Positions 2,904-41,295 of a stretch of 64,000 bases of DNA are shown piece by piece. How positions within the stretch are numbered: the stretch's first letter is position 1; every line of letters starts with the position of its first letter. The stretch lies in contig JAFDZP010000002.1 in the NCBI GenBank assembly GCA_018266835.1, positions 1,153,302 through 1,217,301 of the forward strand, written 5' to 3'. A model generated the notes under the pieces. That model was not told the origin of the DNA. It did not search any database and saw nothing but the letters and a program-made list of their open reading frames with translations. Position numbers and translations under genes: made by a program. Origin of the DNA: Bacteroidota bacterium (GTDB lineage: Bacteria > Bacteroidota > Ignavibacteria > Tepidaquicellales > Tepidaquicellaceae).

Positions 2904-5000
2904 ATGAAACTGCTTAGTACAATTTTAATTATTCTTGTTTTATGTTTTGAGACAACGTATGCCGCTCCAAGGATTAAAATAGTAAGTGAATATGTAACCC
3001 CAAACATGTACGCTGCAAATTCAGCATTTACTGCTGATTCAACTGTAGCAACAGGTTTGAGAACTACAGCAAAAGGCACTTATGTTTACCTCAGAGCATG
3101 GAATTTCGGAGATGCAGGAACAATCACAAGCACCAGCTGGTCATTTGTTTCAAAGCCAAGCGGCTCTGCATCAGTTCTTGCCGGAATTACAGGATTAACT
3201 GCCTGGCAAAAATTTAAAACAGATTTAGCCGGACTTTATCAGGTATCCGTATCTGTTGTAACATCAACAGGAACAAAGGATACAACAATTTCAATTTATG
3301 CCGCAAGTTTTGTAGGAACAGGCGGATTTGATAGCGTTGCAGCAGCTTTCCCAAACTGTATGAGCTGCCACGGTTCAACACCAAAATTCCAAAATATATT
3401 CAATAGCTGGAAAACAACAGACCACGCTACAAAGTTTAAAACAATGATTACTGCAGGACCATCATCCTACGGAATCAATCAGTTCAGAGTTCACACACAA
3501 GGTTATGACCATTATTTAGCAGCCGATAATAACGGCTTTGATGATGTTGCAAGAACAGCAGGATGGAACTGGACTGCTTATGCACCTCCTAAAGCTTCTA
3601 ACTGGGATTCTTTAAAAAGAAAATTCCCTAATCTTGTTGCTTTCTCAAATGTAGGATGTGAAAGCTGTCACGGACCGGGAAGCGAACACGTTTACAACGG
3701 CGGTGATACAACAAGAATAATGAAAAGCGTTGACGAAGGTTCATGCGGAAAATGCCACGACTCACAATACTTAGGACCGGAATTCGCACAATGGAAGAAT
3801 GCAAGACACTCAAATGTAGTATGGTCTTCATCATTTGCACAGAATAATTATGCCACACCTAATGATTTAGGAAACTGTATAAGATGCCACGACGGACAAG
3901 GTTATGTAAACTTTACAAAAGGTAAATCTACTTATACAAACGGTATGACACAGGCAAACCATGAAATGGTAGCTTGCGCATCATGCCACGATCCACATGG
4001 AAGCACAAATCCTTATCAGGTAAGAACAAGACCTGTAAACAGTGACTCATTAGCAAACGGATTCCATTACACAGGTGTTGGAACAGGCGTTGTATGTCTT
4101 GATTGCCATAAAGCAAGAAAGAGTGCAGACAGCTATCCTCAAACAACAAGAGTAACCAGCTCAACCTGGGGACCACACCATAACAGCCAGGGTGACTTAT
4201 TCTTAGGAAAAAATCTTGCTACATTTGGCGGAACACCATACAGACAAACACAGCACTTTGCATTTTTACCTAATGGATGCGTAACATGTCACATGGCACC
4301 AACAGATACTACTGCAGCAAATAAAGATAAAGTCGGCGGACACGCCTTATATCTGCACAACGATGCAACAGATTACGATCACTTGAAAGCTTGTCAAAAC
4401 TGCCACTTTGGAAAAACAAGATTTGACCAGTTTATTGCAGACAGAGACTATGACGGCAACGGAACAATCGAAGCATGGAGAAAAGAAGTTGATGGTACAT
4501 TAAGAAAATTAAGAATTGCATTGCCACCGGTTGGCGTTGACTCAGTTGCATGGCAATTAATTGCAGCAGACTCTAACAACGTTACATTAAGAAAAGCATA
4601 CTTCAATTACCTCTCAATTGCTGAAGGTTCTGAACGCGGTATGCACAATGCAAAATATACCATTGATGCTTTAGTAGCTTCAATAAACGTATTAACAGGT
4701 ATAGTACCTACATCAACAGAAATTCCGATGAAATATGAAATGTCACAAAACTATCCAAACCCATTTAATCCTTCAACAAAGATAAATGTATCTTTAACGA
4801 AGACATCAAATGTAAGAATAATAGTTTATGACATTACAGGTAAACAAGTTGCTGAGCTTGCAAACACAGTAATGAATGCAGGTAAATATACAATTGACTG
4901 GAACGCAACAACAGCCGGACAATTAAGCAGCGGAGTTTACTTCTATAGAATCAATGCAGGTGACTTTGTTGATGTAAAGAAAATGATGCTTCTGAAATAA
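2904..5000 (+). CDS. Octahaem c-type cytochrome exported by the type IX secretion system
   Basis: 698 residues. A signal peptide (1-20, ending TTYA) is followed by a PKD-like beta domain (about 24-145). Eight CxxCH haem motifs lie between residues 152 and 501: CMSCH, CESCH, CGKCH, CIRCH, CASCH, CLDCH, CVTCH and CQNCH. The C-terminal T9SS sorting domain (about 610-698) contains NPFNPSTK and ends KKMMLLK. An AGGAG ribosome binding site at 2892-2896 supports the start. A haem protein with a T9SS tail should end up outside the cell, so it is the likely terminal element of the electron conduit formed with the downstream porin and periplasmic cytochromes. Export of a folded, haem-loaded cytochrome by T9SS fits the general property of that system to move folded cargo. 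Substrate and redox partner are not shown by the sequence. Confidence 0.93.
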   Translation: MKLLSTILIILVLCFETTYAAPRIKIVSEYVTPNMYAANSAFTADSTVATGLRTTAKGTYVYLRAWNFGDAGTITSTSWSFVSKPSGSASVLAGITGLTAWQKFKTDLAGLYQVSVSVVTSTGTKDTTISIYAASFVGTGGFDSVAAAFPNCMSCHGSTPKFQNIFNSWKTTDHATKFKTMITAGPSSYGINQFRVHTQGYDHYLAADNNGFDDVARTAGWNWTAYAPPKASNWDSLKRKFPNLVAFSNVGCESCHGPGSEHVYNGGDTTRIMKSVDEGSCGKCHDSQYLGPEFAQWKNARHSNVVWSSSFAQNNYATPNDLGNCIRCHDGQGYVNFTKGKSTYTNGMTQANHEMVACASCHDPHGSTNPYQVRTRPVNSDSLANGFHYTGVGTGVVCLDCHKARKSADSYPQTTRVTSSTWGPHHNSQGDLFLGKNLATFGGTPYRQTQHFAFLPNGCVTCHMAPTDTTAANKDKVGGHALYLHNDATDYDHLKACQNCHFGKTRFDQFIADRDYDGNGTIEAWRKEVDGTLRKLRIALPPVGVDSVAWQLIAADSNNVTLRKAYFNYLSIAEGSERGMHNAKYTIDALVASINVLTGIVPTSTEIPMKYEMSQNYPNPFNPSTKINVSLTKTSNVRIIVYDITGKQVAELANTVMNAGKYTIDWNATTAGQLSSGVYFYRINAGDFVDVKKMMLLK

Positions 5001-5048
5001 TCAGTTCAATATAATTCAAACAGTTCTTTTTTCATGGTTGATAAAGTG

Positions 5049-5068
5049 GGTATGACGTAAGTCATACC
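5049..5068 (+). terminator. Hairpin between octahaem cytochrome and porin genes (attenuator or partial terminator)
   Basis: A perfect 8-bp stem, GGTATGAC / GTCATACC, with loop GTAA, is followed by TGCTTTT. The T-run is short, so it may only reduce read-through into the porin gene or protect the 3' end of the cytochrome message. It sits in the only sizeable gap (128 bases) of the operon. Confidence 0.45.
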
Positions 5069-5128
5069 TGCTTTTCAGCTTCAAACGGGGTAAGTAACAA
5101 TGGTAGTTTCATTCAAATAGGTAAAATT

Positions 5129-6427
5129 ATGAAATATACTCTTCTAATTCTAATTACATTTCTTTTTTATTTCAATACAGCGAATTCACAGTCATTAAAT
5201 TTCAGAGTTAATAATTATTTTTACGGTTGGGAAAGAATAGACAGTCTATCGGATAACTCTACTGCTAAAACTATGCATCTTAGAGGATATCAGAATTATC
5301 TTTTAGATGTGAATTCAGGCAAATGGACTTTCAATACACTTGCCCAGACAGAAGAAGATGTAATGAACGGAACAGATAAAGGATTTAATTACAGATTTTA
5401 TAATCTGTATCTGAAAGGTTCAAATCTTTTTAATCTTGTAGATGTAAAGCTCGGAAGACAAAGTTTGTTTGCCGGTGCAGGTACAGGAACATTTGACGGC
5501 CTTCATTTGAAAGTCAAAGCAGGACAGTTTAAAGAATATCAGTTAGCAGTTTACGGCGGTATTCCTACTCCTTATTCGTATGAGATAGATACATATTCCA
5601 ATCTCAGCAGCAATTATCAGTTCGGCGGACAGTTTACTTATTACGGCGTAAAAGATCTTTCAGCTTCGGTAAGTTACATAAATAAAAAACGAAATCCTGA
5701 ATCTTACACAACAATAAGATTAGACAGCGCATACAACACAACAACGAGAGAGATAACATTTGACGCTCCTGCAGAACAGATTGCAGGAATAGATTTAAAT
5801 TATACTTATCTTGGAAAAAATAATTTTTTCAGCAAAGCTTATTACGATTTCCAGCAAAAGAAATTATACAAAGCAGAAATCAACGCAAGAGTTTCGGTAA
5901 ATGATAACTTAAGAGTTTTTGGTGAATATGATTACAGAGAACCTCACTTTACTTACAACAGTATATTCTGGGTATTCCAATATTCAAAATATCAGGAAGT
6001 ATCAGGGGGAGCAGATTATATGTTAGATAACGGAATTGATATCTACGGTAAAGTAGGCGCAGTCCTCTATGAAAATGATAATTCAATAAAAGTTGATGCA
6101 GGATTTACTCATCCTAATTTCGGACTGACCTACGTAAGATATTTCGGATACGCCGGTGAATCAGACGGAGCAACTGCTTATTATCAAAGAAGTTTTCAGG
6201 ATAACTTATTTTCTACATCAGCCTCTGTAAGCTATTCAAGATACAGACTTGGAAATGTTTACGATACAGAAAAAATAAATTCACTCAGCGGAATGCTGGG
6301 ATTTACGTACAGACCTACTCCTCAGTTTTCTGTTGATGTACAGGGACAGTTATTAGTGAACAGAATTTATTCCTCTGATGCAAGATTTTTAGTCGGTGCC
6401 AGCTACTGGTTGTTTAAAAAGTTTTAA
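5129..6427 (+). CDS. Outer-membrane beta-barrel protein, probable porin of an electron conduit
   Basis: 432 residues. A signal peptide (1-20, NTANS then Q) is followed by alternating hydrophobic and polar beta strands rich in Tyr, Phe and Gly through the whole protein. The last residues are SYWLFKKF, with the C-terminal phenylalanine expected of outer-membrane barrels. No haem motif is present. It lies between an exported octahaem and a 14-haem cytochrome, matching the layout of porin-cytochrome (Pcc/Mtr-like) clusters, in which the barrel sheathes a cytochrome across the outer membrane. I see no direct sequence similarity to MtrB that I could vouch for, so the role is inferred from fold signals and context. 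It is followed by the next gene after 10 bases. Confidence 0.82.
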   Translation: MKYTLLILITFLFYFNTANSQSLNFRVNNYFYGWERIDSLSDNSTAKTMHLRGYQNYLLDVNSGKWTFNTLAQTEEDVMNGTDKGFNYRFYNLYLKGSNLFNLVDVKLGRQSLFAGAGTGTFDGLHLKVKAGQFKEYQLAVYGGIPTPYSYEIDTYSNLSSNYQFGGQFTYYGVKDLSASVSYINKKRNPESYTTIRLDSAYNTTTREITFDAPAEQIAGIDLNYTYLGKNNFFSKAYYDFQQKKLYKAEINARVSVNDNLRVFGEYDYREPHFTYNSIFWVFQYSKYQEVSGGADYMLDNGIDIYGKVGAVLYENDNSIKVDAGFTHPNFGLTYVRYFGYAGESDGATAYYQRSFQDNLFSTSASVSYSRYRLGNVYDTEKINSLSGMLGFTYRPTPQFSVDVQGQLLVNRIYSSDARFLVGASYWLFKKF

Positions 6428-6437
6428 TATAAAAAGT

Positions 6438-7694
6438 ATGAAAATTGCAAAACTTTATTTACTTGTACTTTCAGGTTTAATTATCTTCTTAGCTTCTACA
6501 GCATATCTTTCAAAAGATATGGCTATGATAAAAAAGCAGGGTAAAGTTTACTCAACGGAAAAGACAGATAACAGCGCGATTATCAAGTTCAACCATAAGC
6601 TTCACGTTGTAGATGCTGAAGTAAAATGCGAAGACTGCCATACAGGAGCAGGTAAATCGGTTTCCAGCAAAGATAATCTGAACCCTAAGAAAGAAATGTG
6701 CGCAACGTGTCACGATGTAAAAGATACGAAGACATGTAATCTTTGCCATTATGACGGAGTCTATAAAAAACTTGAACACAAAAACACGGAGTTAATTTTT
6801 TCTCATAAGCAGCATATAGATACACAAAAGAAAAAATGTACAGATTGCCATCAGGGACTTGATAAGGTGAAATTCTCAAAAGAAAGCGCTGCGGGATTTC
6901 CAAGTATGGAAACATGCAACACTTGCCACGATAATAAAGCAGCAAGCAATAATTGCGAAAGCTGTCACTCAAATCTGACAAATCTTCATCCGAAAAATCA
7001 CAAGAGCCCGAATTTCTTAAATGAACATAAGGTTAGCTCAGATGCATCTTTAGATAAAAATAATTGTGCAATGTGCCACAGTGATAACTTCTGCCAGACA
7101 TGCCACTCACCGGCAGGATTTAAAGGCAATAACACAAAGAAAGATTTCTTTGCACCTTATTATACTAAAGAAAACGGAGTAAGAACTGACAGAGCAGCTT
7201 TACAAAAACTTACAACAGCTCACACTTTAAATTATAAATTTACACATGGACTCGATGCAAACCAAAAGAGCTTTGAATGTAAAACATGCCATACCGAGCA
7301 GCAGTTCTGCGTATCCTGCCATCAAAACGGAGGTGAAACAGTTACAGGTATTGCTCCAACCAGCCACTCAATGGCAAACTTTACAACGTTCGGAGTAAAT
7401 ACAGGCGGCGGATTACATTCAGACCTTGCAAGAAGAGATATAGAAGCATGTGCTTCATGCCACAATGTTGAAGGCAGCGACCCTGCATGCGTAAAATGTC
7501 ACTTTGATAATACAGGAGTAAAAGGAACACATCCAAAGACACATGAATCAGGATTTATGAGAGACGAGAAAGGTATATGGCACGATACACAAGGAGCAGT
7601 TTGCTATACATGTCACACTGATGCTAACGCTAAGCCAAACGGAATAGCAGGTGTCGGATTTTGCGGATATTGTCACGGACAAAAATCAAGATAA
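6438..7694 (+). CDS. 14-haem periplasmic c-type cytochrome
   Basis: 418 residues from the ATG at 6438; an upstream in-frame ATG at 6396 overlaps the porin gene and would precede the hydrophobic signal. Residues 5-24 form a signal peptide or membrane anchor. Fourteen CxxCH motifs are present: CEDCH, CATCH, CNLCH, CTDCH, CNTCH, CESCH, CAMCH, CQTCH, CKTCH, CVSCH, CASCH, CVKCH, CYTCH and CGYCH. Extra histidines between them (for example FNHKLH, FSHKQH) suit bis-His ligation as in cytochrome c3/c7 families. There is no T9SS tail, so it is expected in the periplasm or inside the barrel. It probably passes electrons towards the outer-membrane porin. It is 10 bases after the porin gene and 22 bases before the next cytochrome. 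Confidence 0.93.
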   Translation: MKIAKLYLLVLSGLIIFLASTAYLSKDMAMIKKQGKVYSTEKTDNSAIIKFNHKLHVVDAEVKCEDCHTGAGKSVSSKDNLNPKKEMCATCHDVKDTKTCNLCHYDGVYKKLEHKNTELIFSHKQHIDTQKKKCTDCHQGLDKVKFSKESAAGFPSMETCNTCHDNKAASNNCESCHSNLTNLHPKNHKSPNFLNEHKVSSDASLDKNNCAMCHSDNFCQTCHSPAGFKGNNTKKDFFAPYYTKENGVRTDRAALQKLTTAHTLNYKFTHGLDANQKSFECKTCHTEQQFCVSCHQNGGETVTGIAPTSHSMANFTTFGVNTGGGLHSDLARRDIEACASCHNVEGSDPACVKCHFDNTGVKGTHPKTHESGFMRDEKGIWHDTQGAVCYTCHTDANAKPNGIAGVGFCGYCHGQKSR

Positions 7695-7716
7695 CTTCAA
7701 ATAAATATTTACAATA

Positions 7717-8568
7717 ATGAAAAAGATTTTTCTATTCTACGGTTTGTTTTTTACTTTACTAATTTCAGCACTCGTTTATCAGGGATGCGCTAAGCTGGAT
7801 ACGACTGTATCCTCTGCACCGGAGATTGATACTCACCCTAACGGATGGGCAAATCCATCTTCTGCAAAATTTCACGGTAAATATATTACAGATAACAAAT
7901 TATGGAATCTGAGCCAATGTAAAACATGTCACGGAGCAGATTATAAAGGCGGCACAGCAGGTTCGGATTGTACCGGATGCCATACTGCAAGCGGCGGACC
8001 TGAAAACTGCAGATTATGCCATGGCAACAGCGACCATTCAAATCCACCTAAAGGATTGTTAGGTGATACAGCAACAAGTTTCATAGGAGTGGGAGCTCAC
8101 GTTACTCACGTGAACACACCTAACTTCTCAGCTTCATTGCATTGCACTGACTGTCACGCATTCGGCGGTTTCTCAGATCCTAATCATATAGGAAATAATC
8201 CTGACGGCATTGCAGAGATAACTTTTGGTGAACTTGCGCACGATACATTAGGCGGCGGAATAGTTCCTGACCCAACCTGGAACAGAGGAACAGCAACATG
8301 CTCAAATGTATATTGTCACGGAACATTCAAAGGCGGTAACACAAGCGCTTCAGGAATCTGGACTGATAAGACAAGTGTAAGATGCGGAACATGCCATGGA
8401 GACCCTGATACAGGAAATCCTACTCCGAAAATTAACGGAGTTGTAACTGCACCGCACTTCCCGTTCATGACTGTAAAAACTTGTTACATATGTCACGGAA
8501 CAGTTATCGGGCCTACAGGTGCAATGGTTGATAAGAGCAAACATATAAATGGAGAAATAAATTATTAG
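7717..8568 (+). CDS. Multihaem lipoprotein-like cytochrome with CxxxxCH...CxxCH repeat
   Basis: 283 residues. The N-terminal hydrophobic segment ends VYQGC at Cys 23, a plausible though not ideal lipobox, so membrane attachment is likely. There are six CxxCH motifs (CKTCH, CTGCH, CRLCH, CTDCH, CGTCH, CYICH) plus one CSNVYCH, a CxxxxCH motif just before CGTCH. This pairing matches the CxxxxCH...CxxCH domain known from Geobacter outer-surface cytochromes (TIGR01904 type). It is the last gene of the operon and is followed by a strong terminator. It is probably an outer-membrane-attached partner of the conduit; which face it occupies cannot be read from the sequence. Confidence 0.88.
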   Translation: MKKIFLFYGLFFTLLISALVYQGCAKLDTTVSSAPEIDTHPNGWANPSSAKFHGKYITDNKLWNLSQCKTCHGADYKGGTAGSDCTGCHTASGGPENCRLCHGNSDHSNPPKGLLGDTATSFIGVGAHVTHVNTPNFSASLHCTDCHAFGGFSDPNHIGNNPDGIAEITFGELAHDTLGGGIVPDPTWNRGTATCSNVYCHGTFKGGNTSASGIWTDKTSVRCGTCHGDPDTGNPTPKINGVVTAPHFPFMTVKTCYICHGTVIGPTGAMVDKSKHINGEINY

Positions 8569-14132: not shown

Positions 14133-16232
14133 ATGAAAAAATTATTTTTTTTGTTTATTATCTTATTCTCATCACAACCTGCTTTTTCTCAAAGTGGCTG
14201 GTATTGGCAACACCCACTTCCCCAAGGAAATAACTTAAATTCAGTAAAGTTTATTGACAACTCTACTTTAATAGCTGTTGGAGATCAAGGGGTTATTATA
14301 AGATCAACTGACAAAGGTGTAACTTGGTCTTTAGAACCTTCTTTTTCACAAAAAACATTTACTAGTGTTTATGCCTTAGATCAAAATATTATTTTTATTT
14401 GTGGGGACCAGGGTATTATTTTAAAGTCATCAAACGCAGGTATCAGTTGGTCATATATCGGTGTAAATACCCTGCAAAAACTTAATAAGATTATATTTAT
14501 CAATTCAACAATTGGATTTACGATTGGGAATAATGGTGTAATATTTAGAACTACCAACCTTGGACAAACATGGGTACAACTTAATTCTGGTACTACCTCA
14601 GCATTACAGAGCATATATTTTATGAACGCAAGTACCGGATTTATTTCGGGAGGCGGGTATTTATTAAAGACAATAAATTCAGGAGATAACTGGAGTGTTT
14701 TTGCCCCGGGAGGATTTAATGACTTTCAGTTCTTGAACGAATTAACGGGATATAGTGTCAGCAGTTATTTCTCATTTCCTTCATATTATGGTGTTACTTA
14801 CAAAACAACAAATGGAGGAATAAACTGGAATGCACTTAACGGAAGCTGCTACAGCAGTTGTCTTTCATTACTTTTCTTAGATGCAAATACAGGATTTGTT
14901 TCATCTTCTAATGGTATTTCATACACTTCTAACGCAGGACAGAACTGGACATGCTCTTATCTTAATGTATGCAACTCCATAGATAATAAATCTAATATAT
15001 ACATTACAGTTGGACAAGGTGGGAGTATATTCCGGTCATCCGATAACGGTGTTAACTGGACTAATAAATCTTATTCCTATTCGTCTATTTCTCTTTGGGA
15101 TATTTTCTTTATAAATGAAAATACAGGCTACATATCTGCAACGGAAGGAAATTCTGATAGCACATTCGTAAAAACTACAAATGGAGGGAATAATTGGCTT
15201 AAACTTAAAGCACCTTCAACCGCTATTTTTTCTATTTATTTTACAAATGAAAATACAGGCTATGCAGGAAATGGTGTCGCCCTTTATAAAACTACAAATG
15301 GTGGAATTAATTGGAACATCTCACGAAATGGTTCGTCTTCTATTGTGTGTTTTACAGATGCTAATACTGGTTTTGTTGCCGGAAGTAATTCTGAAATTTA
15401 TAAAACAACAAATGCCGGGTTAAACTGGGAGATGAAATTTTCAGATGCAGCTGGGAACATAAAATCAATTTCTTTTCCTTCTCTCAGTGTGGGTTATGCC
15501 TGTAATGCCAGATTTGATATTCTTAAAACTGAAAATGGAGGTAATTCCTGGTACTATCTTCCTCCAATTAATGGTATTGTTGGTCAGGAAAAAATAATTT
15601 TCATTAACGAAAATACGGGATTTATTTCTACTTCTTATCAGGGAAAGTCAATATTTAGAACAATCGATGGAGGTAATTCCTGGCAGCCTGTCTTAATAAT
15701 AAATGACAATCAAAGTATTATATCAGACATTGATATTTCAGAAAGCGGCACTGGCTATGCTACATGCTGGACAGGAAGGATTTTTAAAACAACAAATTTT
15801 GGAACCTCATGGTTTGAACTCTTAAGTAATACTAACAACAGACTTTATTCTGTTTGTAAAGTAAGTGATTCAATTGTTTTTGCTGCGGGAACCAATTCTA
15901 CAATAATAAAAACCATAAATGGTGGTACTGCATTAACCAGTATTAATAACTTTACAAATATTATTCCATCTGAATTTTATCTTCATCAAAACTATCCGAA
16001 TCCGTTTAATCCAATTACAATTATCAAATTTGATATTCCCAAAACTTCATTTGTAAAAATTAAGATCTATGACGTACTTGGAAAACAAATTGCAACACTG
16101 TTAAATGAAATTAAGCAAGCAGGCAGCTATTCAATCGATTTCAATGCTTCTCAATTATCTTCAGGAATATTTTTCTACAGGTTAGAAACAGAAGGCTTTA
16201 CCGAAACAAAAAAAATGGTTGTACAAAAATAA
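14133..16232 (+). CDS. T9SS-exported Ycf48-like beta-propeller protein
   Basis: 699 residues. A signal peptide (1-19, PAFS then Q) is followed by about thirteen repeats of the form TTNGGxxW...FxNxxTGYxxG, the signature of Ycf48/BNR-like propellers. At this length two propellers may be present. The C-terminal T9SS sorting domain contains NPFNPITI and ends KKMVVQK. Automatic tools often name such proteins photosystem II stability factors; here the fold, not that function, is supported. It has its own upstream region after the double terminator. It converges with fcl, whose stop lies 6 bases away. Confidence 0.9.
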   Translation: MKKLFFLFIILFSSQPAFSQSGWYWQHPLPQGNNLNSVKFIDNSTLIAVGDQGVIIRSTDKGVTWSLEPSFSQKTFTSVYALDQNIIFICGDQGIILKSSNAGISWSYIGVNTLQKLNKIIFINSTIGFTIGNNGVIFRTTNLGQTWVQLNSGTTSALQSIYFMNASTGFISGGGYLLKTINSGDNWSVFAPGGFNDFQFLNELTGYSVSSYFSFPSYYGVTYKTTNGGINWNALNGSCYSSCLSLLFLDANTGFVSSSNGISYTSNAGQNWTCSYLNVCNSIDNKSNIYITVGQGGSIFRSSDNGVNWTNKSYSYSSISLWDIFFINENTGYISATEGNSDSTFVKTTNGGNNWLKLKAPSTAIFSIYFTNENTGYAGNGVALYKTTNGGINWNISRNGSSSIVCFTDANTGFVAGSNSEIYKTTNAGLNWEMKFSDAAGNIKSISFPSLSVGYACNARFDILKTENGGNSWYYLPPINGIVGQEKIIFINENTGFISTSYQGKSIFRTIDGGNSWQPVLIINDNQSIISDIDISESGTGYATCWTGRIFKTTNFGTSWFELLSNTNNRLYSVCKVSDSIVFAAGTNSTIIKTINGGTALTSINNFTNIIPSEFYLHQNYPNPFNPITIIKFDIPKTSFVKIKIYDVLGKQIATLLNEIKQAGSYSIDFNASQLSSGIFFYRLETEGFTETKKMVVQK

Positions 16233-21241: not shown

Positions 21242-23836
21242 ATGTCAGATCAATTTAAATTTAAAAGCTTAAAGATTTACGGCGAGGATGAGTGGCTTTT
21301 CGGAAGCCAGAAAAAATACCGCCGCGTTCTTGAAGAAATAGAGATAACATACATCTATGTTGAGCTAGCTCTCTTCAATAAACTATTCGATGAATCGGAC
21401 TGGAGCACGAAAGTGAACTTCAAGGCATACGATTCCAAAAGGGCCATACTTTGTAACGAAACAAATGACGTACAGGTAAAAAAAGAAGAGAACATTGCAT
21501 ATATTCGTACAAGCTGGGGTGTAAAAACTCCCGGCGGCTATTGGAAAAAAGGAAGTTACAGATGGGAAGCATGGATTGACGGAACATTGATCAGAACAGA
21601 ATATTTTTATATTGAGAATCAGGGAGTAGTAACAGAAGAATCCAACAACTATTTCAATCTAACTTCGGTAAAATTGTTTGAAGGACCGGTTGATGAAGTC
21701 CCTGCCGCTGAACGAAGATATATGAAGGCATTTGATTTTAAAAATACACGATATGTGTGGTTTGAAATGAATGCAGAATCATTGGTAAAAGATGACTGGA
21801 CATGCGAACTCTTCTTCAGCTTTAAAAACGAAGCGGGTGAAACGAAGGGAGTTGATAATCAGTACAGGTTCATGAAGAAGCACGACGAGTACTTTACATT
21901 TACCGGCGGCTGGGGTAATGAATCCAAAACTTCCTGGTATCCGGGAAAATACTACCTCGAAATTTCTTTTATGGACTGTATGATTGCGCGCATTCCGTTC
22001 TATGTAAAAGACGTTGAAGAAGAAGCCGATGTGCAAAATTTATTGCTGACTACTCCTGCACACACCAACATAGTTTCAAAGATAAAAGGAAAAACCAAAG
22101 AAGAAACTGCAGAGGAAATTTTAGCAGAGCTGAACGGATTGATAGGACTTACAGAAATAAAAGATTCGATAAGACAATATTCTGATTACATAAAGTTCTT
22201 AAAGATACGTCAGGAGAAAGGATTAGATAAAGATGTTAAGATAGGTTTGCACTCTGTGTTCACCGGAAATCCCGGCACAGGAAAAACAACAGTTGCAAAT
22301 TTACTGGGTAAGATTTATAAATCACTTGGTCTGCTTTCAAAGGGACATGTGTACGAAGTTGATAGAGCAGATTTAGTAGGTGAGTATATAGGACACACAG
22401 CTCCCAAAGTTAAAGCCGCTATTGAAAAAGCGCGCGGCGGTATTTTATTTATAGATGAAGCGTACTCACTTGCCAGAAGCGGTGAAGACAGCAAAGATTA
22501 CGGTAAAGAGGTAATCGAAATTCTGATTAAGGAAATGTCCGACGGTCCCGGAGACATTGCTATGATTGTTGCAGGCTATCCGAAGGAAATGAAAGTGTTT
22601 ATAGATTCAAACCCGGGATTGAAATCACGCTTCAATATGTATTATAACTTTCCTGATTATGTTCCTCAGGAACTTATTAAAATTGCAGAGTACGCAACGG
22701 CAAAAAAGAACGTTCACATTGAACCCGCTGCTATGAATTATCTCTACGAAGCACTGGTAGAAGGATACAGAAACCGCGACAGTTCATTTGGTAATGCACG
22801 ATATGTGAATTCAATCATTGAAGAAGCAAAGATGAATATGGGATTACGATTAATTCAATCAGGCAAGCTTGAGAATTGCTCGGAAGAAGATTTAAGTACT
22901 ATACGAATTGAAGACTTCCAGAAAATATTCAAAGATAAAAAAGGAATCAAAGCGGATATACCTATTGATGAAGAACTTTTAAAGACGGCTATGTACAAGC
23001 TGCAAAGCATGATAGGAATAGAAAATGTTAAGAGCGAAATAAACGAAATAGTAAAGCTTGTAAGATACTTTAAAGAGATTGGCAAAGATGTTAATGAAAG
23101 CCTCTCACTTCACTCAGTTTTCATGGGTAATCCGGGTACAGGTAAAACAACTGTTGCAAGAATTCTTTCCGATATTTATAAAGCGCTTGGCCTGCTTGAG
23201 AAAGGACATCTTGTAGAGTGCGACAGAGAGTCACTCGTCGGCGGATACGTCGGACAGACTGCTATCAAGACCGGTGCAATGGTTGATGCTGCAATGGGCG
23301 GTGTCTTATTTGTTGATGAAGCTTACTCGCTAACATCTGGCGGCAACGACTTCGGCTCAGAAGCAATTGAAATTATTCTTAAGCGCATGGAAGATTTCAG
23401 AGGGAAGTTCGTTGTTATAGTTGCCGGATACACGGGCAAAATGAATATCTTCCTTGAATCAAATCCGGGACTTAAGTCACGCTTCGATAAAACATTTACA
23501 TTTGAAGACTACAATGAAAAAGAACTCTATTGGATTGCATTAAAGCTACTTGCCGATAGACACGTTACCCCGGATGAAGATGCAAAGAATTACTTATACC
23601 AATACTGCATTGAAATGTTCAAGAACAAAGACGGCTACTTCGGCAACGGCAGAGAAGTCCGCAAGATAGTTGAAGAAGCCGTTAGAAATCAGAACCTCCG
23701 ACTTGCAGATGTTCCTAGAGAGAAACGTACTCCTGAAATGATTGCAACACTTACTACAAAAGATCTTGAGGAATTCAAGATTGATTCATTAAAAAAAGAA
23801 AAGAAAATTTTTGGATTTGATACCGGGAAGGAATAA
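21242..23836 (+). CDS. Dual CbbX/SpoVK-type AAA+ ATPase with duplicated N-terminal beta domain
   Basis: 864 residues. Residues 1-260 contain two similar beta-rich domains (about 8-125 and 140-258); each begins with SLKIYG or SVKLFEG and ends with a strand pair such as RTEYFYIEN or RIPFYVKD. Two CbxX/CfqX-type AAA+ modules follow: Walker A GNPGTGKTT at 342-350 and 629-637, Walker B ILFIDEAYSL and VLFVDEAYSL, and arginine-containing GLKSRF in both. The second module looks as intact as the first. CbbX-type ATPases remodel protein complexes; known members include Rubisco activase and SpoVK. The N-terminal repeat presumably picks the client, which is unknown. No Rubisco or ESX genes are nearby. 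Confidence 0.9.
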   Translation: MSDQFKFKSLKIYGEDEWLFGSQKKYRRVLEEIEITYIYVELALFNKLFDESDWSTKVNFKAYDSKRAILCNETNDVQVKKEENIAYIRTSWGVKTPGGYWKKGSYRWEAWIDGTLIRTEYFYIENQGVVTEESNNYFNLTSVKLFEGPVDEVPAAERRYMKAFDFKNTRYVWFEMNAESLVKDDWTCELFFSFKNEAGETKGVDNQYRFMKKHDEYFTFTGGWGNESKTSWYPGKYYLEISFMDCMIARIPFYVKDVEEEADVQNLLLTTPAHTNIVSKIKGKTKEETAEEILAELNGLIGLTEIKDSIRQYSDYIKFLKIRQEKGLDKDVKIGLHSVFTGNPGTGKTTVANLLGKIYKSLGLLSKGHVYEVDRADLVGEYIGHTAPKVKAAIEKARGGILFIDEAYSLARSGEDSKDYGKEVIEILIKEMSDGPGDIAMIVAGYPKEMKVFIDSNPGLKSRFNMYYNFPDYVPQELIKIAEYATAKKNVHIEPAAMNYLYEALVEGYRNRDSSFGNARYVNSIIEEAKMNMGLRLIQSGKLENCSEEDLSTIRIEDFQKIFKDKKGIKADIPIDEELLKTAMYKLQSMIGIENVKSEINEIVKLVRYFKEIGKDVNESLSLHSVFMGNPGTGKTTVARILSDIYKALGLLEKGHLVECDRESLVGGYVGQTAIKTGAMVDAAMGGVLFVDEAYSLTSGGNDFGSEAIEIILKRMEDFRGKFVVIVAGYTGKMNIFLESNPGLKSRFDKTFTFEDYNEKELYWIALKLLADRHVTPDEDAKNYLYQYCIEMFKNKDGYFGNGREVRKIVEEAVRNQNLRLADVPREKRTPEMIATLTTKDLEEFKIDSLKKEKKIFGFDTGKE

Positions 23837-23855: not shown

Positions 23856-24356
23856 CTATTTTGCTTCTTCCAATTTTAATGTTTCCTTTTCTAACTTATC
23901 AAGCATATCAAGCCAGCTTGGGTAAGCGCCTGTTTGTTTTGCAAGCTCTTCTGAAACTGTCTGATGTAATGTAAGCTTTGTCTTACCTTCGAAATCTTCG
24001 AACGTAACCGTTACAATTGTTTCATCAGGCCATGAGTGCTTATCGGTCTGCGATGAGCTGATAAAATTTCCGTCATCATCACAGAATCCCAGCTTATAAC
24101 TGATTTTTTCATTTTCAATTATATCTATATATTCACCTTTGCATTTACATGGTGTACCGTCTGGTGAGTTGATGCTATGCTGAAAAACTCCGCCGGGCTT
24201 GAACTCTAACTTATAAATTGTAATTGAGCATGTCCCCGGAAAATACCAGTTTCTAAGATGTCCCGCACTTGTCCATGCTTTATAAACAAGCTCACGGGGC
24301 GCATCAAATATTCTTACTATATTTACTTCTTTATCTTTGTTGTTTGCTGCATCCAT
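23856..24356 (-). CDS. SRPBCC (AHSA1/START-like) domain protein, copy 3
   Basis: 166 residues, one SRPBCC ligand-binding fold. The N-terminus KEVNIVRIFDAPRELVYKAW is the usual first strand and helix of AHSA1-like proteins. Strands with FKPGG and a C-terminal helix from LDMLDKLEKE follow. It is close to the upstream neighbour (same KEVNIVRIFDAPREL start), so the two are recent duplicates. It is last gene of an operon headed by an ArsR repressor. The ligand is unknown. Confidence 0.9.
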   Translation of the reverse strand: MDAANNKDKEVNIVRIFDAPRELVYKAWTSAGHLRNWYFPGTCSITIYKLEFKPGGVFQHSINSPDGTPCKCKGEYIDIIENEKISYKLGFCDDDGNFISSSQTDKHSWPDETIVTVTFEDFEGKTKLTLHQTVSEELAKQTGAYPSWLDMLDKLEKETLKLEEAK

Positions 24357-24382
24357 AATTATTATTTATTTAGTATGGGAAA

Positions 24383-24865
24383 TTAATTTTGCTTTATAGA
24401 TTCTTCTAAGTTGTCAAGTATTTCAAGCCAGCCGTTATAAGAACCTTCATTCTTCGCAAATTCTTCTGAGATTGTCTGGTGCAATGTCAGCTTTGTCTTT
24501 TTCTCAGAATCTTCAAATGTTATCGTAACAGTTGTTTCATCGGGTCCTTTCATCTGTGCATCAGAAGCAGAAATTATTTTACCGTTCTCATCGCAGAAGC
24601 GAAGGACATATACAATTTTTTCTTTCTCAATAATTTCCAGAAATTCTCCCATGAATATACAACCGCCATGAGTGCTTCTCACTTCATGGTGAAAGATTCC
24701 GCCCGGCTTAAATTCAAATTTATATATTGTTGTCTTACACGTTTGAGGAGCGTACCAGTTTTTTAAATGCTCCGGATTAGTCCATGCTTTGAAAACTAAC
24801 TCGCGCGGTGCATCAAAAATCCTGACTATGTTTACTTCTTTATCTGCATTGGAATCCATAATCAT
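24383..24865 (-). CDS. SRPBCC (AHSA1/START-like) domain protein, copy 2
   Basis: 160 residues from the ATG at 24865, which overlaps the stop of the preceding gene by one base (TAATG); a second ATG at 24859 gives MDSNADKE, which aligns better with copy 3. The single SRPBCC domain has FDAPRELVFKAWT and FKPGGIFHHE. The close overlap indicates translational coupling in the ArsR operon. Confidence 0.9.
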   Translation of the reverse strand: MIMDSNADKEVNIVRIFDAPRELVFKAWTNPEHLKNWYAPQTCKTTIYKFEFKPGGIFHHEVRSTHGGCIFMGEFLEIIEKEKIVYVLRFCDENGKIISASDAQMKGPDETTVTITFEDSEKKTKLTLHQTISEEFAKNEGSYNGWLEILDNLEESIKQN

Positions 24866-25380
24866 TATTTATTTTTTTCAAGATATTGTTCAAGCTTTTC
24901 AAATGTTCCTGCAAAGCCTTGCTGCATTGATTTTCTGTTGCTTTCAAATGCTGCCAGCTCTTCAGCGTTCGCATTTACCGGTCCACCTTTTAATGTAAGA
25001 GTTGTCTTACCATTATTTTCTGATAAAGTCATCACATTAAGAATTTCAAGAGGCCATTTGCCGTCGAAGAAAGGCGCGCGTGTTATCTCCCCTTTTTCAT
25101 TGGAGAATGAATTTATGAAGACAAGTTTTTCAGGCGCATTGATTTCTTTATAAGTAAAAAGTCCCCACATTTCAAATCCGTTATGTGCTTTCATATTATA
25201 ATGAAACTGACCTCCGGGTTTGAATTCCAGTTTATGTACAGTGATATCAAAACCCTTCGGTCCCCACCACTGAGCAAGAGCTTCAGCATCTGTCCATGCT
25301 TTCCAGACAAGGTCACGCGGTGCATCAAGCTCGCGGGTGATTACTAATTCATTTTCCTGATTTTCTTTTTGTTCTGACAT
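24865..25380 (-). CDS. SRPBCC (AHSA1/START-like) domain protein, copy 1
   Basis: 171 residues. The SRPBCC fold has LDAPRDLVWKAWTDAEALAQ, QWWGPKGFD and FKPGGQFHYN. It is more diverged than copies 2 and 3 and nearer to the usual SRPBCC partners of ArsR proteins. Its start lies 32 bases inside the 3' end of the ArsR gene, a typical arrangement of this pair. Confidence 0.92.
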   Translation of the reverse strand: MSEQKENQENELVITRELDAPRDLVWKAWTDAEALAQWWGPKGFDITVHKLEFKPGGQFHYNMKAHNGFEMWGLFTYKEINAPEKLVFINSFSNEKGEITRAPFFDGKWPLEILNVMTLSENNGKTTLTLKGGPVNANAEELAAFESNRKSMQQGFAGTFEKLEQYLEKNK

Positions 25381-25741
25381 TTTTCCCTCCGGTTTTTTCA
25401 GATTTATTTACAGGTTTATTTTTTGATTGAATTTTTTTCAGATACTCATCGAGTGAATCAAGCTGTGAAGTCCAGTACTTTCTATACTGCTCAACCCAGT
25501 CGGAAACTTCAGTAAGCTTTTCAAGTTTTACTTCGCAGAATTTCTCAGTCCCTACCTGAGTTGAAACAACAAGCCCGCATTCAGTAAGGATTTTTATATG
25601 CTTCGATACTGCAGGTCTGCTGACTTCAAAGTTCAAAGCGACTTCATTTATAGTGAGCTTCTTTCCCGCAAGCAGTGATATAATTGCCCTGCGGTTGGGG
25701 TCGGCTATTGCCTGAAAAACATCTCTTCTTAAATTATCCAT
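25349..25741 (-). CDS. ArsR-family winged-helix repressor
   Basis: 130 residues. The winged helix (about 5-85) has the sequence RRAIISLLAGKKLTINEV and recognition region SRPAVSKHIKILTECG. No metal-binding CxC of the ArsR/SmtB type is visible, so it belongs to the group linked with SRPBCC genes. The C-terminal tail is Lys-rich. It heads a four-gene operon and overlaps the next gene. It probably represses its own operon; the inducer is unknown. Confidence 0.93.
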   Translation of the reverse strand: MDNLRRDVFQAIADPNRRAIISLLAGKKLTINEVALNFEVSRPAVSKHIKILTECGLVVSTQVGTEKFCEVKLEKLTEVSDWVEQYRKYWTSQLDSLDEYLKKIQSKNKPVNKSEKTGGKNVRTKRKSGK

Positions 25742-30418: not shown

Positions 30419-31348
30419 ATGGCTAAAAGACTCAAATATTTGATGTTTTTGATTGTATGTTTTATGCTCATTGGCAAAAGCGCCCAATCGCAGGATTTAA
30501 AAGTAAACGTCACAATGGATGCCAGCACCCTCTCGCCCGATGTAAGAGACAGATTGAAAAATTTTGTTCAGCAGGTGCAGGATTATTTAAACAAAAATAA
30601 ATTTCAGCCAAGCACCAAAGTGCTTGAACCGGATTATACTGTAGAAGCAGATTTTAATTTCTTTTTCCGTACAGGAAGTTCGGATAATTACGATGTCCAG
30701 CTCTTTGTTTCCAGCAGAAGAAAGATAGATGATGCCTCGCTCAGAACAAACACTCCGAAGTACTCTCCAATGTTCAGGTTTTTAGATGAACGTGTCAGTT
30801 TTTTTTATAACAACTCATTAAGGTTTGAAAGAAACGATTCACGCTTTGAGCCGCTTGTTAGTTTACTGGATTATTATGCTTACATGATACTCGGTTACGA
30901 TGAAGATTCATACTTCGTAAAAGGAGGCACTTCTTTATTTCAGAAGGCGCTGGATATATGTAACAAACCGATGACAGATAAAAAAGGATGGACTGAATCA
31001 GGCGGGGGTTCTAAGCCGACAAGATTGCAGATTGTACAGGAATTGCTTAGTGTGCGTTTCGATAATTACAGAAAAGGAATTTTTGAATATATGTGGATGG
31101 GAATTGATTCAATGAGTGTAAACAAACGTGATGCTTATAAAAATGTTCTTAGCTCGCTTGAAAGAATTGACCAGGTAAGAAAAAATGAGATCAAGTCTTA
31201 CAATATTGATATCTTTTACGATGCAAAAAATAAGGAGATTGCAGACTTGTTTACAGATTATGGTGACAGAACAGTTTACGATAAGCTGATAAAGTTTGAT
31301 CCGTCGCACAGAAGTGTGTACGAAGATGCACAGCGGAAAGCGCGGTAA
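30419..31348 (+). CDS. porD: Type IX secretion system protein PorD (DUF4835)
   Basis: 309 residues. A signal peptide (about 1-25, SAQS then Q) is followed by the DUF4835 pattern: an N-terminal KVNVTMDAS strand, FNFFFRTG, then LLDYYAYMILGYDEDSYF, which matches the family core (YAYIILGxDxDSF), and a C-terminal domain ending near ELF-like EIADLFTDYG. PorD is required for or associated with T9SS in Bacteroidota. It agrees with the ten T9SS cargo proteins in the window. AGGAG lies 3 bases before the ATG. No other T9SS component gene is here. Confidence 0.87.
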   Translation: MAKRLKYLMFLIVCFMLIGKSAQSQDLKVNVTMDASTLSPDVRDRLKNFVQQVQDYLNKNKFQPSTKVLEPDYTVEADFNFFFRTGSSDNYDVQLFVSSRRKIDDASLRTNTPKYSPMFRFLDERVSFFYNNSLRFERNDSRFEPLVSLLDYYAYMILGYDEDSYFVKGGTSLFQKALDICNKPMTDKKGWTESGGGSKPTRLQIVQELLSVRFDNYRKGIFEYMWMGIDSMSVNKRDAYKNVLSSLERIDQVRKNEIKSYNIDIFYDAKNKEIADLFTDYGDRTVYDKLIKFDPSHRSVYEDAQRKAR

Positions 31349-37410: not shown

Positions 37411-38643
37411 TTATTTTACAAGCATCATTTTTTTCGTTTCGGTAAACTCATTTGTTTTCAGAGTGTAGAAATATACTCCGCTATTGAGTTCACTTGCATT
37501 GAAGTTTATTTCATAACTGCCTGCAGAAATATTTTCATTCACCAGGGTTTTTACTTCTTTACCTGTCATATCAAAAATTTTCAAAGATGCGAAAGTTGAA
37601 TTCTTTACATCAAAACTAATTTTTGTTTCAGGGTTGAAAGGATTGGGGTAATTTTGTTTTAATGAAAATTTATCCGGTACTGATGAGGAAATCTGATTTA
37701 CTGATAACAATGCACCGTTTGTTGTAGAGGAAATTATTGAATTTCCGGAAACCCAGCCGGAATTGCTATTAATAAAACTTATATCATAATAAACATTATT
37801 AAGTTCGGTTTTTTGTACAACCCAGGTTTCTCCGCCATTTATTGTACGGCAGATAACAGCGTTTGAACCGCTGGCACCGACACACCATCCCATACTCGGA
37901 GTATAAAACTTTAAGGCATAAGGAAAAGTCATAGGGATTGCATAATTTATCCAGGTGTCACCGCCATCAGTTGTTTTTCTGATTGAGTTTGTTCCTGTTA
38001 TCCAGCCTGTCTGCTGATTTATAAATGTCATTGCCTGGTTTACGCCGTCATACAATGTTCGTGTCCAATTTAATCCGCCGTCAATTGATTTGGCAAAATA
38101 ACTTGGAGCAACTACATATCCCGTCATTTCATTGAAAAACTGAATTTGCCCATAAGCGAATGATGAGCTGTTTATTAAATTCCAGCTTAACCCGCCGTTA
38201 GTTGTTTTATGAATTTTATTATCGTGGCTGGTAATGTAACCTGTCTGATCATTTAAGAAGAAGAAATCAGCAGAGAAATCATTAGTGAGAATTGGGGCAG
38301 AATACCATGAAACTCCGCCGTTTGTTGTTTTCTTTACAACAGCATCTTCAGAACCTATCCAACCCGTATTTTCATCAATGAAATAAATACATGTTAAAAA
38401 TGAAGTGGTGCCATTACTTACGACGGACCAGTTATTACCGCCATTTGTTGTTTTAATTAAAGTACCATTTCCTCCGCATGCCCAACCTGTAAGTGAATTT
38501 ACAAACTGCACTCTTCTCAAATAATTTCCTCCAATGTTATTCAAATACTGTGTTGTCCAAACTGACTGGGAAAAAGAAACACTCTGAATAAAAAGAAATG
38601 AACAAAATAAAAAAATTCCGAAGGCAAATATTTTTGTTTTCAT
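37411..38643 (-). CDS. T9SS-exported Ycf48-like propeller, paralog 3
   Basis: 410 residues. A signal peptide (about 1-26, SFSQ) is followed by about seven TTNGGxxW / FxNxxTGW units that would form one propeller, and a T9SS sorting domain (about 320-410, NPFNPETK, ending KKMMLLVK-like). It is one of three tandem paralogs; its signal peptide and sorting domain are nearly the same as in the other two, while the propeller differs more. Secreted or surface protein; no enzymatic motif. Followed by a strong terminator. Confidence 0.9.
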   Translation of the reverse strand: MKTKIFAFGIFLFCSFLFIQSVSFSQSVWTTQYLNNIGGNYLRRVQFVNSLTGWACGGNGTLIKTTNGGNNWSVVSNGTTSFLTCIYFIDENTGWIGSEDAVVKKTTNGGVSWYSAPILTNDFSADFFFLNDQTGYITSHDNKIHKTTNGGLSWNLINSSSFAYGQIQFFNEMTGYVVAPSYFAKSIDGGLNWTRTLYDGVNQAMTFINQQTGWITGTNSIRKTTDGGDTWINYAIPMTFPYALKFYTPSMGWCVGASGSNAVICRTINGGETWVVQKTELNNVYYDISFINSNSGWVSGNSIISSTTNGALLSVNQISSSVPDKFSLKQNYPNPFNPETKISFDVKNSTFASLKIFDMTGKEVKTLVNENISAGSYEINFNASELNSGVYFYTLKTNEFTETKKMMLVK

Positions 38644-38700
38644 AACAGTAAAATTTACATTATTAAAAAGCAGGGAGATTTTTACTTATACTACTTAAAA

Positions 38701-39954
38701 TTATTTTACTAGGATCATTTTTTTTGTTTCTATAAATTCATTTGTTTGCAGAGTATAAAAATATACTCCGCTGTTGAGTTCGCCTGCATTGAAATCTATT
38801 TCATAACTTCCCGCTGAAATATTTTCATCTATAAGAGTTTTAACTTCTCTTCCTGTCATATCAAAAATTTTCAACGAAGCATATGTAGGATTTGTTACAT
38901 CAAAACTGATTCTTGTAGTTGGGTTGAACGGATTTGGAAAATTCTGCTTCAGAGAATATTTATCAGGTAAGAGTGAAGAAGTCTGAAGGACTGCTGTCAT
39001 ACCCCCGCTTCCGTTTACTGTTGAAGAAATTATGGCATTACCACACGCCCACCCTTGATTTTGATTTATAAAACTAAGGTCATAAAACTTGTTTCCATTT
39101 TCAGTTTTCTGTACTACCCAGTTCATACCTCCATCAATTGTACGGCAGATAATCCCTTTTGTATTATCATATCCTACACACCATCCAAGATTTTGATTCA
39201 AAAATACTACAGACATAGGAATAGGCAAAGGAACATTTAATATTGCCCAGTTATCACCGCCATTAGTTGTTTTTGCTATTCCGTTTGGAATTGTTGCCCA
39301 GCCTGTAGATTGATTGAGGAAATAATAATCCTGAAAATATCCTAATTGATTGTTAGTGTTGTGTAAAATTGAAGACCATGAATTTCCTCCGTCACTGGTT
39401 CTATAAAGGTCATAATCTGAAAGTATCCATCCGTTATTTTCATCAATAAATTGAACTTCTCCCCATGCCTGAGAGGACGGAGCGATATTTTGCCAGTTAC
39501 TTCCGCCGTTTGTAGTTTTTAAAATCTGTCCGCTGTGTGCTGATGCATATCCGATCATGCTGTTCACAAACCAGATATCTGCCACATAATCCGTAGTAGG
39601 AATAGAAAATCCGCTCCAGGTTACACCGCCGTCAGTTGTTTTTTTCATCTCAGGAATGGTAGAACCAACCCAACCTGTATACTGGTTTATAAAAAATAAT
39701 GATGAAATAAATCCTGAGCTGCCGGTATTAAGTATAGCCCAGTTATCTCCTCCATTAGTAGTTTTTACAAATGTTCCGTTTCCGCCACCCGAATATCCTA
39801 TATTGGGAGTAAGAAATTTTACCTTACGAAGATAGTTTCCTCCTATATTATTAATAAAATTTGTCGACCAAACTGATTGCGAGAAAGATACAGTTTGAGT
39901 AAAGAGAAAAACCAAGAGGAAAAAAATCCCGAACGAAACAATTTTAGATTTCAT
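38701..39954 (-). CDS. T9SS-exported Ycf48-like propeller, paralog 2
   Basis: 417 residues, same layout as its neighbours: signal peptide (1-26, SFSQ), seven BNR-like blades with KTTNGGDNW, and T9SS sorting domain with NPFNPTTR. Closest to the gene at 40051-41295, sharing the segment DYDLYRT and GWATIPNGIAKTTNGG. The gaps of about 57 and 96 bases on each side carry no terminator that I can see, so the three may be co-transcribed. Confidence 0.9.
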   Translation of the reverse strand: MKSKIVSFGIFFLLVFLFTQTVSFSQSVWSTNFINNIGGNYLRKVKFLTPNIGYSGGGNGTFVKTTNGGDNWAILNTGSSGFISSLFFINQYTGWVGSTIPEMKKTTDGGVTWSGFSIPTTDYVADIWFVNSMIGYASAHSGQILKTTNGGSNWQNIAPSSQAWGEVQFIDENNGWILSDYDLYRTSDGGNSWSSILHNTNNQLGYFQDYYFLNQSTGWATIPNGIAKTTNGGDNWAILNVPLPIPMSVVFLNQNLGWCVGYDNTKGIICRTIDGGMNWVVQKTENGNKFYDLSFINQNQGWACGNAIISSTVNGSGGMTAVLQTSSLLPDKYSLKQNFPNPFNPTTRISFDVTNPTYASLKIFDMTGREVKTLIDENISAGSYEIDFNAGELNSGVYFYTLQTNEFIETKKMILVK

Positions 39955-40050
39955 TTTGAATATATTTTTATAGTATACGGAGAAAAACTCAACAAAAAAT
40001 AATTACCTTAATATAAAAGTAATAAAAACTAAAAAAAGCTGAAAATAAAA

Positions 40051-41295
40051 TTACTTAATTAATGTCATTTTTTTGGTTTCTGTAAACTCATTTGTTTTCA
40101 AAGTATAAAAATATATTCCACTGTTGAGTTCGCCGGCATTAAAATTAATTTCATAAGTTCCGGCAGAAATATTTTCATTAACAAGGGCTTTTACTTCCCT
40201 TCCGTTCATATCAAATACTTTTAACGAAACAAAAGTTGAATTTTTTACCAAAAAACCAATTTTTGTTGTTGGGTTGAATGGATTTGGAAAATTTTGTTTT
40301 AATGAAAATGCGTCAGGCGATTGACTGGATGTCTGAATTATAGATACCAATCCTCCATTTGTTGTAGAAGAAACTATAGCATCACCAGTGGCCCATCCCA
40401 TATTTACATTTGCAAAACTAATATCCCAGTACTCATTGCCCGGTTCTACTTTTTGTGTAACCCAGTTAGCGCCACCATTTACAGTACCTAATATATAACC
40501 CGTTGAGTTGTTAGTATGTCCTGCACACCAACCCACATTTTCATTTAAAAATTGAATTGCCATTGGTGAAGCCATTTGAATAGTTTTAAATGACCATGAA
40601 TCTCCGCCGTTAGTTGTCTTTGCAATACCGCTTGGAATTGTTGCCCATCCGGTCAATGCATTAATGAAATGAAAATCCTGAAAATATCCCAACTGCATTC
40701 CTGCATTATGGAAAATAGAAGTCCAAGTGGTACCAGCATTAGTAGTTCTGTATAAATCGTAATCTGAAAGTATCCATCCTGTATTTATATCTAAAAATTT
40801 CACTTCACCCCAATGTATATTTAACGGAGCGATATTTATCCAGTTTGTACCCCCGTTAGAGGTCTTAAATATCTGACCTCCGTTTCCGGCTAAAAAACCA
40901 GTCTGGCTGTTATTGAAGTAAATATCAGCTATGTAACTGCTTGTGCTTAAAGGCTGACTGGACCATGTAATTCCGCCGTCCGTGGTTTTTTTAACAAGCG
41001 GCTCTGTTGAACCAACCCAACCCGTATTTTCATTAATAAAATATATTGCAGTTATATACCCTGTAAGTCCTGTATTCAAAACGTTCCAGCTATCTCCTGC
41101 ATCTGTAGTTTTTACAAATTTACCATTGCCTCCTCCTGTATATCCGACCGTTGTGCTTACAAATTGAACTTTACGAAGCTGATTTCCTTCAATAGTCTGA
41201 AATTGTCTTGTATTCCATACTGATTGAGAAAAAGAAACTGACTGAATTGCCAAAACTAATACCATGGCAAAAATTAAAGATTTAAACTTTCTCAT
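40051..41295 (-). CDS. T9SS-exported Ycf48-like propeller, paralog 1
   Basis: 414 residues. Signal peptide (1-23, SFSQ), seven BNR-like blades, T9SS sorting domain with NPFNPTTK, ending KKMTLIK. It is first of the three tandem copies and probably carries the promoter in the 169-base gap to the divergent methyltransferase gene. The triplet suggests recent duplication of a surface protein. Confidence 0.9.
   Translation of the reverse strand: MRKFKSLIFAMVLVLAIQSVSFSQSVWNTRQFQTIEGNQLRKVQFVSTTVGYTGGGNGKFVKTTDAGDSWNVLNTGLTGYITAIYFINENTGWVGSTEPLVKKTTDGGITWSSQPLSTSSYIADIYFNNSQTGFLAGNGGQIFKTSNGGTNWINIAPLNIHWGEVKFLDINTGWILSDYDLYRTTNAGTTWTSIFHNAGMQLGYFQDFHFINALTGWATIPSGIAKTTNGGDSWSFKTIQMASPMAIQFLNENVGWCAGHTNNSTGYILGTVNGGANWVTQKVEPGNEYWDISFANVNMGWATGDAIVSSTTNGGLVSIIQTSSQSPDAFSLKQNFPNPFNPTTKIGFLVKNSTFVSLKVFDMNGREVKALVNENISAGTYEINFNAGELNSGIYFYTLKTNEFTETKKMTLIK

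Follow-up and report, generated by a model that had tools for sequence, protein, structure and literature searches.

The locus and its product

Within the window (the whole stretch of 64,000 nucleotides that was analysed), a protein of 864 residues is encoded on the forward strand (Table 1). Pfam assigns it two AAA and two AAA_lid_6 domains, while the first 273 residues have no convincing Pfam match. The two AAA+ modules align over 276 columns with 44% identity. The Pfam matches and this identity bear out the initial sequence-only reading of the ORF as a fusion of two CbbX-type modules. The best NCBIfam models are SpoVK, CbbX and EccA. The SpoVK model (TIGR02881) scores 531 bits against a cut-off of 423; because this score is the sum of two stretches, it is not taken as an equivalog call. 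The CbbX model remains below its cut-off (434 versus 459), even with two stretches counted.

The annotated neighbours in the window include no Rubisco, spore or ESX genes, as had been noticed before. The adjoining segment (23856-25741) carries three AHSA1-type genes in a row and an ArsR-type regulator. Elsewhere in the window are several YCF48/BNR-type proteins with type IX secretion sorting tails (14133-16232 and 37411-41295), a PorD-like gene (30419-31348) and a run of multiheme cytochrome-like genes (2904-8568), one of which has a type IX secretion tail.

Table 1. Coding sequence, domains and motifs of the two-motor protein (positions refer to the window).
Feature	Position	Strand	Residues	Basis or conservation
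Whole-protein CDS	21242..23836	+	864 aa plus stop	ORF exact; full-length relatives
Beta domain 1	21248..21637	+	~3-132	predicted immunoglobulin-like sandwich; hhalign versus domain 2, E 1e-14
Beta domain 2	21647..22027	+	~136-262	predicted structure; hhalign to domain 1
Linker, beta head to first motor	22034..22099	+	265-286	pLDDT <50
AAA+ module 1	22109..22927	+	290-562	Pfam, NCBIfam, module alignment, tree
Module 1 Walker A	22265..22288	+	342-349	invariant 67/67
Module 1 pore-loop position	22379..22399	+	380-386	Tyr 47, Phe 20 of 67
Module 1 Walker B	22442..22462	+	401-407	Asp-Glu invariant
Module 1 NPG..SRF stretch	22610..22633	+	457-464	Asn and Arg invariant
AAA+ module 2	22994..23776	+	585-845	Pfam, NCBIfam, module alignment, tree
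Module 2 Walker A	23126..23149	+	629-636	Lys-Thr invariant 67/67
Module 2 pore-loop position	23240..23260	+	667-673	Tyr 40, Phe 24, His 3 of 67
Module 2 Walker B	23303..23323	+	688-694	Asp-Glu invariant
Module 2 NPG..SRF stretch	23462..23485	+	741-748	Asn and Arg invariant

Distribution, phylogeny and chromosomal place

A full-length match was found in 18 of 99 genomes of relatives (own genome included), six from the window's family and twelve from a second family of the order. The ORF is thus conserved and not a chance product. When one genome per species was scanned with an N-terminal profile, 91 pattern matches resulted in 71 confirmed loci. According to the record titles, these are from Ignavibacteria, Bacteroidia and one Aminicenantes MAG. 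The layout of about 865 residues is found in 67 of 72 ORFs (window included), full length being defined as >840 aa; the other five are partial, ending at contig ends, and were left out of the 67. In a sample of the phylum, any match to the head is restricted to 18 of 395 genomes.

A quick likelihood tree was computed from 87 module rows picked by hand from the loci, with SH-aLRT support only. It contains only two CbbX and two EccA rows; support for its inner nodes is uneven, and not all of the long branches are reliable. The module 1 sequences of the two-motor form make up a single clade (support 99). Those of module 2 cluster with the second module of the three-motor sister proteins described below (support 99; module 2 clades, 98-99). 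Neither module falls with the CbbX or the EccA rows. By this tree, modules 1 and 2 appear as distinct clades of old origin, both outside CbbX and EccA.

The gene mostly stands alone. In 43 of the 71 loci, a gene for tRNA-Ser(GCT) is found less than 2 kb upstream, often together with one for tRNA-Pro(TGG); any tRNA gene is found in this range in 47 of 71. We interpret this as a single, old location on the chromosome of Bacteroidia. The tRNA-Ser(GCT) placement was not seen upstream of the Ignavibacteria loci. Conserved blocks in the long upstream non-coding regions were considered as a leader RNA; they are explained by the tRNA genes instead.

Conservation of the two active sites

Both modules keep the Walker A Lys-Thr, the Walker B Asp-Glu, the sensor-1 Tyr and the SRF Arg without exception in all 67 full-length ORFs (window included). 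The earlier statement that Walker A, Walker B and a GLKSRF stretch are kept in both modules thus holds beyond the window. Equally invariant are the sensor-1 GY signature (G445-Y446 and G729-Y730), N457 and N741, which are located four residues before positions 461 and 745 (mostly Lys), R463 and R747, which are candidate arginine-finger residues, and R520 and R804 in the FGN(A/G)R stretch. We take the latter pair to be sensor 2 (second arginine finger). An aromatic residue occupies the pore position of module 1 in 67 of 67 ORFs and that of module 2 in 64 of 67 (His in three); the role of this position is assumed by analogy with CbbX. With the sensor-1 GY and the candidate sensor-2 Arg kept, the protein appears to carry the signatures of the SpoVK/CbbX/EccA clade, as these are given in the available part of PMC10659427.

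The sequence-only reading had set the protein apart from red-type CbbX pairs, as only here would both motors be active in one chain. This contrast is wrong. According to the available part of PMC9833100, both CbbX copies of Cyanidioschyzon merolae are needed and form a 1:1 hetero-oligomer, and this lends support to a possible cooperation of two non-identical motors. As judged from the sequences, the window protein is a real and widely conserved, CbbX-related protein, predicted to be a protein-remodelling motor, and both of its motors look functional.

The N-terminal beta head

The two beta domains have only about 20% pairwise identity. Their family profiles match over 122 columns in hhalign (probability 98.3, E 1e-14), and it is this profile match, despite the low identity, that establishes the N-terminal duplication as real and excludes chance as its origin. 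AlphaFold2, supplied with 14 homologs, models the head as a confident all-beta pair (pLDDT 88, pTM 0.81), with a predicted immunoglobulin-like sandwich fold for both domains. The repeat inferred at the outset is thus supported by profile and structure; its unit is nearer 125 residues than the 115 originally given.

A Foldseek search with the head resulted in RbmA as top PDB match (E 7e-9). The TM-scores are low, probably due to a different setting of the two domains. The best single-domain matches with VIA are immunoglobulin-like domains of GH2 (Z 10.8, 2.9 A, 103 residues) and the sugar-binding domain of Aquifex Wzt (Z 10.6, 2.4 A, 106 residues). These two are tied, and a fold as common as this shows neither a function nor a specific relation. 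Common Ig-like folds dominate both the VIA and the Foldseek lists, and further families may lie outside them.

At the sequence level, profile searches of the PDB with the head matched no solved chain (best E 0.46), a search of the own genome for the Wzt_C family found none, and a plasmid search with the head had nothing for the window protein. There is no second copy of the head in the own genome. DUF3859 was matched by one secreted-looking relative only (E 0.0024); an identity of the beta domain with this family was not upheld, and one DUF3859 protein has no match to the beta profile. The sequence-only reading had left the N-terminal domains unrecognised and had proposed structure prediction and structure searches. 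These give a recognisable fold (immunoglobulin-like); a family with a defined client, which would have contradicted the idea of a new chaperone, was not among the matches.

Sister and variant forms

A single-domain profile (A3) detects the beta domain in 82 of 341 genomes of the class. From 51 sister loci that were fetched, 48 ORFs with a beta domain were obtained; in three loci (L143, L227 and L229) the script detected no head match, and these do not appear among the 48 rows. The prevailing form (43 of 48) has one beta domain and three motors, with about 1,300 residues. Three ORFs have one beta domain and two motors, one has a beta pair and two motors, like the window protein, and one is a lone domain. 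The 46 sister-form loci referred to below are the 43 three-motor and the three two-motor single-head ORFs. TPR repeats are present in the one protein of about 1,300 residues that was scanned. Among the rows of the A3 search, the ~865-aa and the ~1,300-aa forms never occur together in a genome; G602, a genome of family f19, carries the 865-type in place of the 1,300-type. In many sister-form loci of family f10, a lipoprotein-like gene of about 215 residues is found upstream on the opposite strand (L140, 11412-12056, and equivalents).

The beta head thus precedes AAA modules in two layouts and in several families. One variant (L132, 598 aa) has a beta pair and one motor, and some modules of sister proteins are devoid of Walker motifs; two active motors are therefore not essential everywhere in the wider family. 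Beta pairs also occur alone, behind what reads as a likely signal peptide (L027, L028, L125, L126 and L139), and within a longer protein (L127). Tandem CbbX-type modules are not unique to this chain: they are found in the three-module sister proteins, in a Pontibacillus plasmid protein and in a 936-aa protein on a human-gut contig filed as "Bacteriophage sp." (L242).

Two further CbbX-type genes were observed. One (L030, 6398-7756, in genome G004) codes for a single-module protein of 452 residues and is surrounded by histidine-kinase- and response-regulator-like genes. The other is an apparent extra module split over two ORFs, directly upstream of the copy in genome G014 (L029, 8662-9872).

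Gene neighbourhood and alternative functions

A neighbourhood survey, as suggested together with the sequence-only reading, covered 71 loci and 51 sister-form loci. It revealed no universal client, and clustering of the neighbours from 72 loci (window included) gave no universal cluster. Response regulators are the most frequent neighbours (25 of 72), followed by a TPR kinase (18 of 72), and both are mostly found in a subset of the Bacteroidia. This two-component pair was rejected as a partner; it is seen in some of the Bacteroidia only, with two genes of the opposite strand frequently in between, and is taken as synteny. No protease gene is conserved beside the family loci. In the controls, CbbX is beside rbcL-rbcS and EccA beside eccB and eccC. 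The neighbourhood thus reveals the client for CbbX and EccA; it does not do so here, which points to a client encoded elsewhere.

The tandem protein might be a Rubisco activase, as CbbX is, and CbbX structures are indeed its closest solved relatives (first in Foldseek). This reading is extremely unlikely. The Rubisco large subunit is absent from the whole own genome, so Rubisco was rejected as client, and it was found in only one of 12 carrier genomes searched; the CbbX cut-off is not reached, and the rbcL-rbcS-adjoining CbbX controls form a separate clade. Remodelling or assembly of membrane ABC exporters by this family has more in its favour. In 20 of the 46 sister-form loci, an ABC ATPase and a PF16949-type (ABC_tran_2) permease follow directly downstream on the same strand; the sister-locus permease that was scanned is a PF16949 protein (E 1e-60). 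For the two-motor form, a same-strand downstream gene within 60 bp exists in 21 of the 66 loci with a downstream ORF, and 19 of these 21 genes have a membrane-like segment, compared to 134 of 316 control pairs. The 21 genes fall, however, into six unrelated groups, four of them membrane-like (ten genes belong to one group of 135-145 aa, six to one of 114-126 aa, and five are others), so that the membrane excess does not come from independent cases; no neighbour of this kind adjoins the window gene. All 44 genomes searched from the two families of the window, the 18 carriers among them, lack PF16949, and the domain is present in families without the ATPase. Since PF16949 is missing from 44 of 44 genomes, the exporter cannot be the client of the window protein and was rejected for these families; for the family at large, we consider an exporter client improbable.

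A general unfoldase or disaggregase that serves protein quality control and has no dedicated client would fit the Foldseek matches to Cdc48, Drg1 and ClpA. It would also fit the position of the sister form one or two genes after GroES-GroEL in 13 of 46 loci, yet all of these are from a single family (f19). In contrast to core unfoldases, the gene is patchy (see the counts for relatives and for the phylum sample above), and the clade members characterised in the available part of PMC10659427 are dedicated. We regard quality control as unlikely, if less so than the other alternatives. An anti-phage defence ATPase similar to IetA is very unlikely. It would account for PADLOC matches to IetA, but these are weak (best E 6e-15), cover the AAA core only and are at the level of generic AAA homology. 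A single-module relative (L031, 4512-6560, 682 aa, one CbbX-type module) is located amid restriction-type genes, with a type IIG restriction-modification gene and the PADLOC candidates PDC-M30A and PDC-M30B/M41B as neighbours; another neighbour is presumably the start of a Cas9 gene, judging from its N-terminus. The annotated neighbours of the window copy include no defence genes, and the Bacteroidia copies occupy one fixed chromosomal place, unlike shuffled defence islands. Finally, the head may be a carbohydrate- or envelope-binding module, which would make the ATPase a two-ring motor guided by glycans, with enzymes of envelope polysaccharide or surface assembly as the proteins it remodels. 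This is suggested by the resemblance of its fold to the O-antigen-binding domain of Wzt and to the matrix scaffold RbmA, and by the heads that are made alone behind a likely signal peptide. We know of no AAA+ remodeller with glycan-guided client choice, and we give this idea a small chance, comparable to that of an exporter client.

Proposed function

According to the available part of PMC10659427, SpoVK, CbbX and EccA belong to a single clade, whose members are dedicated chaperones that recruit through variable N-terminal domains and are not associated with peptidases; SpoVK activates MurG. CbbX is described in the available part of PMC9833100 as a hexamer that threads the C-terminal tail of Rubisco. 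The full-length monomer model of the window protein has good domains but a pTM of only 0.39, which does not fix the stacking of the rings or the position of the head; its top Foldseek matches are CbbX structures, followed by the two-ring machines Cdc48/p97, Drg1 and ClpA.

We consider it fairly probable that the protein is a dedicated, double-ring protein remodeller which recruits an unlinked client via its beta head. It would belong to the SpoVK/CbbX/EccA clade of AAA+ ATPases, as a cytosolic member with tandem motors. By comparison with its relatives, a hexamer in which two ATPase rings are stacked is the most likely assembly; the tandem modules could also form one mixed ring instead. The two immunoglobulin-like domains, on a flexible tether, would serve as recruiting head, as suggested by their N-terminal position, by the low-confidence linker and by the variable N-termini of the clade, to which substrate recruitment is ascribed. 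The pore aromatics of the two rings (Tyr382 and Tyr669) would grip a tail or loop of the protein so recruited. ATP hydrolysis would then tug at the client, which would be remodelled or activated and not degraded; the lack of a conserved protease gene beside the gene argues for remodelling over degradation. The client would be one of the cell's own proteins, encoded away from this locus and perhaps located at the cell envelope. What was computed here, and underlies this proposal, is the architecture, the repeat, the conservation of both active sites, the spread of the family and the lack of a conserved partner gene. A remodelling chaperone, as first proposed, is the best-supported reading, and both motors are intact; the contrast to CbbX, the novelty of the tandem and the fold of the head had to be corrected.

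Where the job of a clade member is known, it consists in serving a single machine (Rubisco, MurG in spores, type VII secretion). The tandem motors form a branch apart, which has a recruiting domain of its own and keeps to one chromosomal place in many Bacteroidia; this implies that there is one more dedicated client, and our literature search found none described in this group. As the head can be expressed alone as bait, the client question is directly testable. The available text of PMC10659427 mentions a beta-prism in some CbbX-like proteins, so that the layout may already have been drawn in Figure 3A of that paper. On the sequence evidence, the strongest new facts appear to be the fixed two-motor family and the retention of both active sites. 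Also new are the negative tests for Rubisco and the ABC exporter, and the occurrence of the beta domain in both the three-motor sister form and secreted-looking proteins.

Comparison with known systems

CbbX (PDB 3syk/3syl/3zuh) has the AAA+ core and lid in common with the window protein (42% identity in the Foldseek alignment), as well as the sensor-1 GY, the NPG..SRF-type stretch and the pore position. It has, however, one module, no beta head and Rubisco as client, whereas the window protein has two modules, a beta pair and a genome without Rubisco. With Rubisco absent and both modules outside the CbbX pair in the tree, the window protein is not a CbbX proper.

SpoVK, the MurG chaperone of sporulating Firmicutes, is the best NCBIfam model and has the same clade signatures. 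As described in the available part of PMC10659427, it has a short N-terminal domain and is restricted to sporulating Firmicutes. The window protein has a beta head of 260 aa and two modules, and the carriers of the two-motor form are Ignavibacteria, Bacteroidia and one Aminicenantes. EccA of type VII secretion also has a large N-terminal part before a CbbX-type core, and TPRs are found in the sister form as well. It has, however, one motor and is encoded beside eccB/eccC; the window protein has a beta pair, and no such genes are among its annotated neighbours.

The beta head resembles, in structure only and without a sequence match, the tandem immunoglobulin-like sandwiches of the biofilm scaffold RbmA and the single immunoglobulin-like sandwich of the C-terminal sugar-binding domain of Wzt. 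The tandem AAA+ unfoldases of the Cdc48/p97 type belong to another AAA subclade and have another N-terminal fold, and the double ring of the window protein is a prediction. They do have the same arrangement, an N-terminal adaptor domain followed by two AAA modules per chain.
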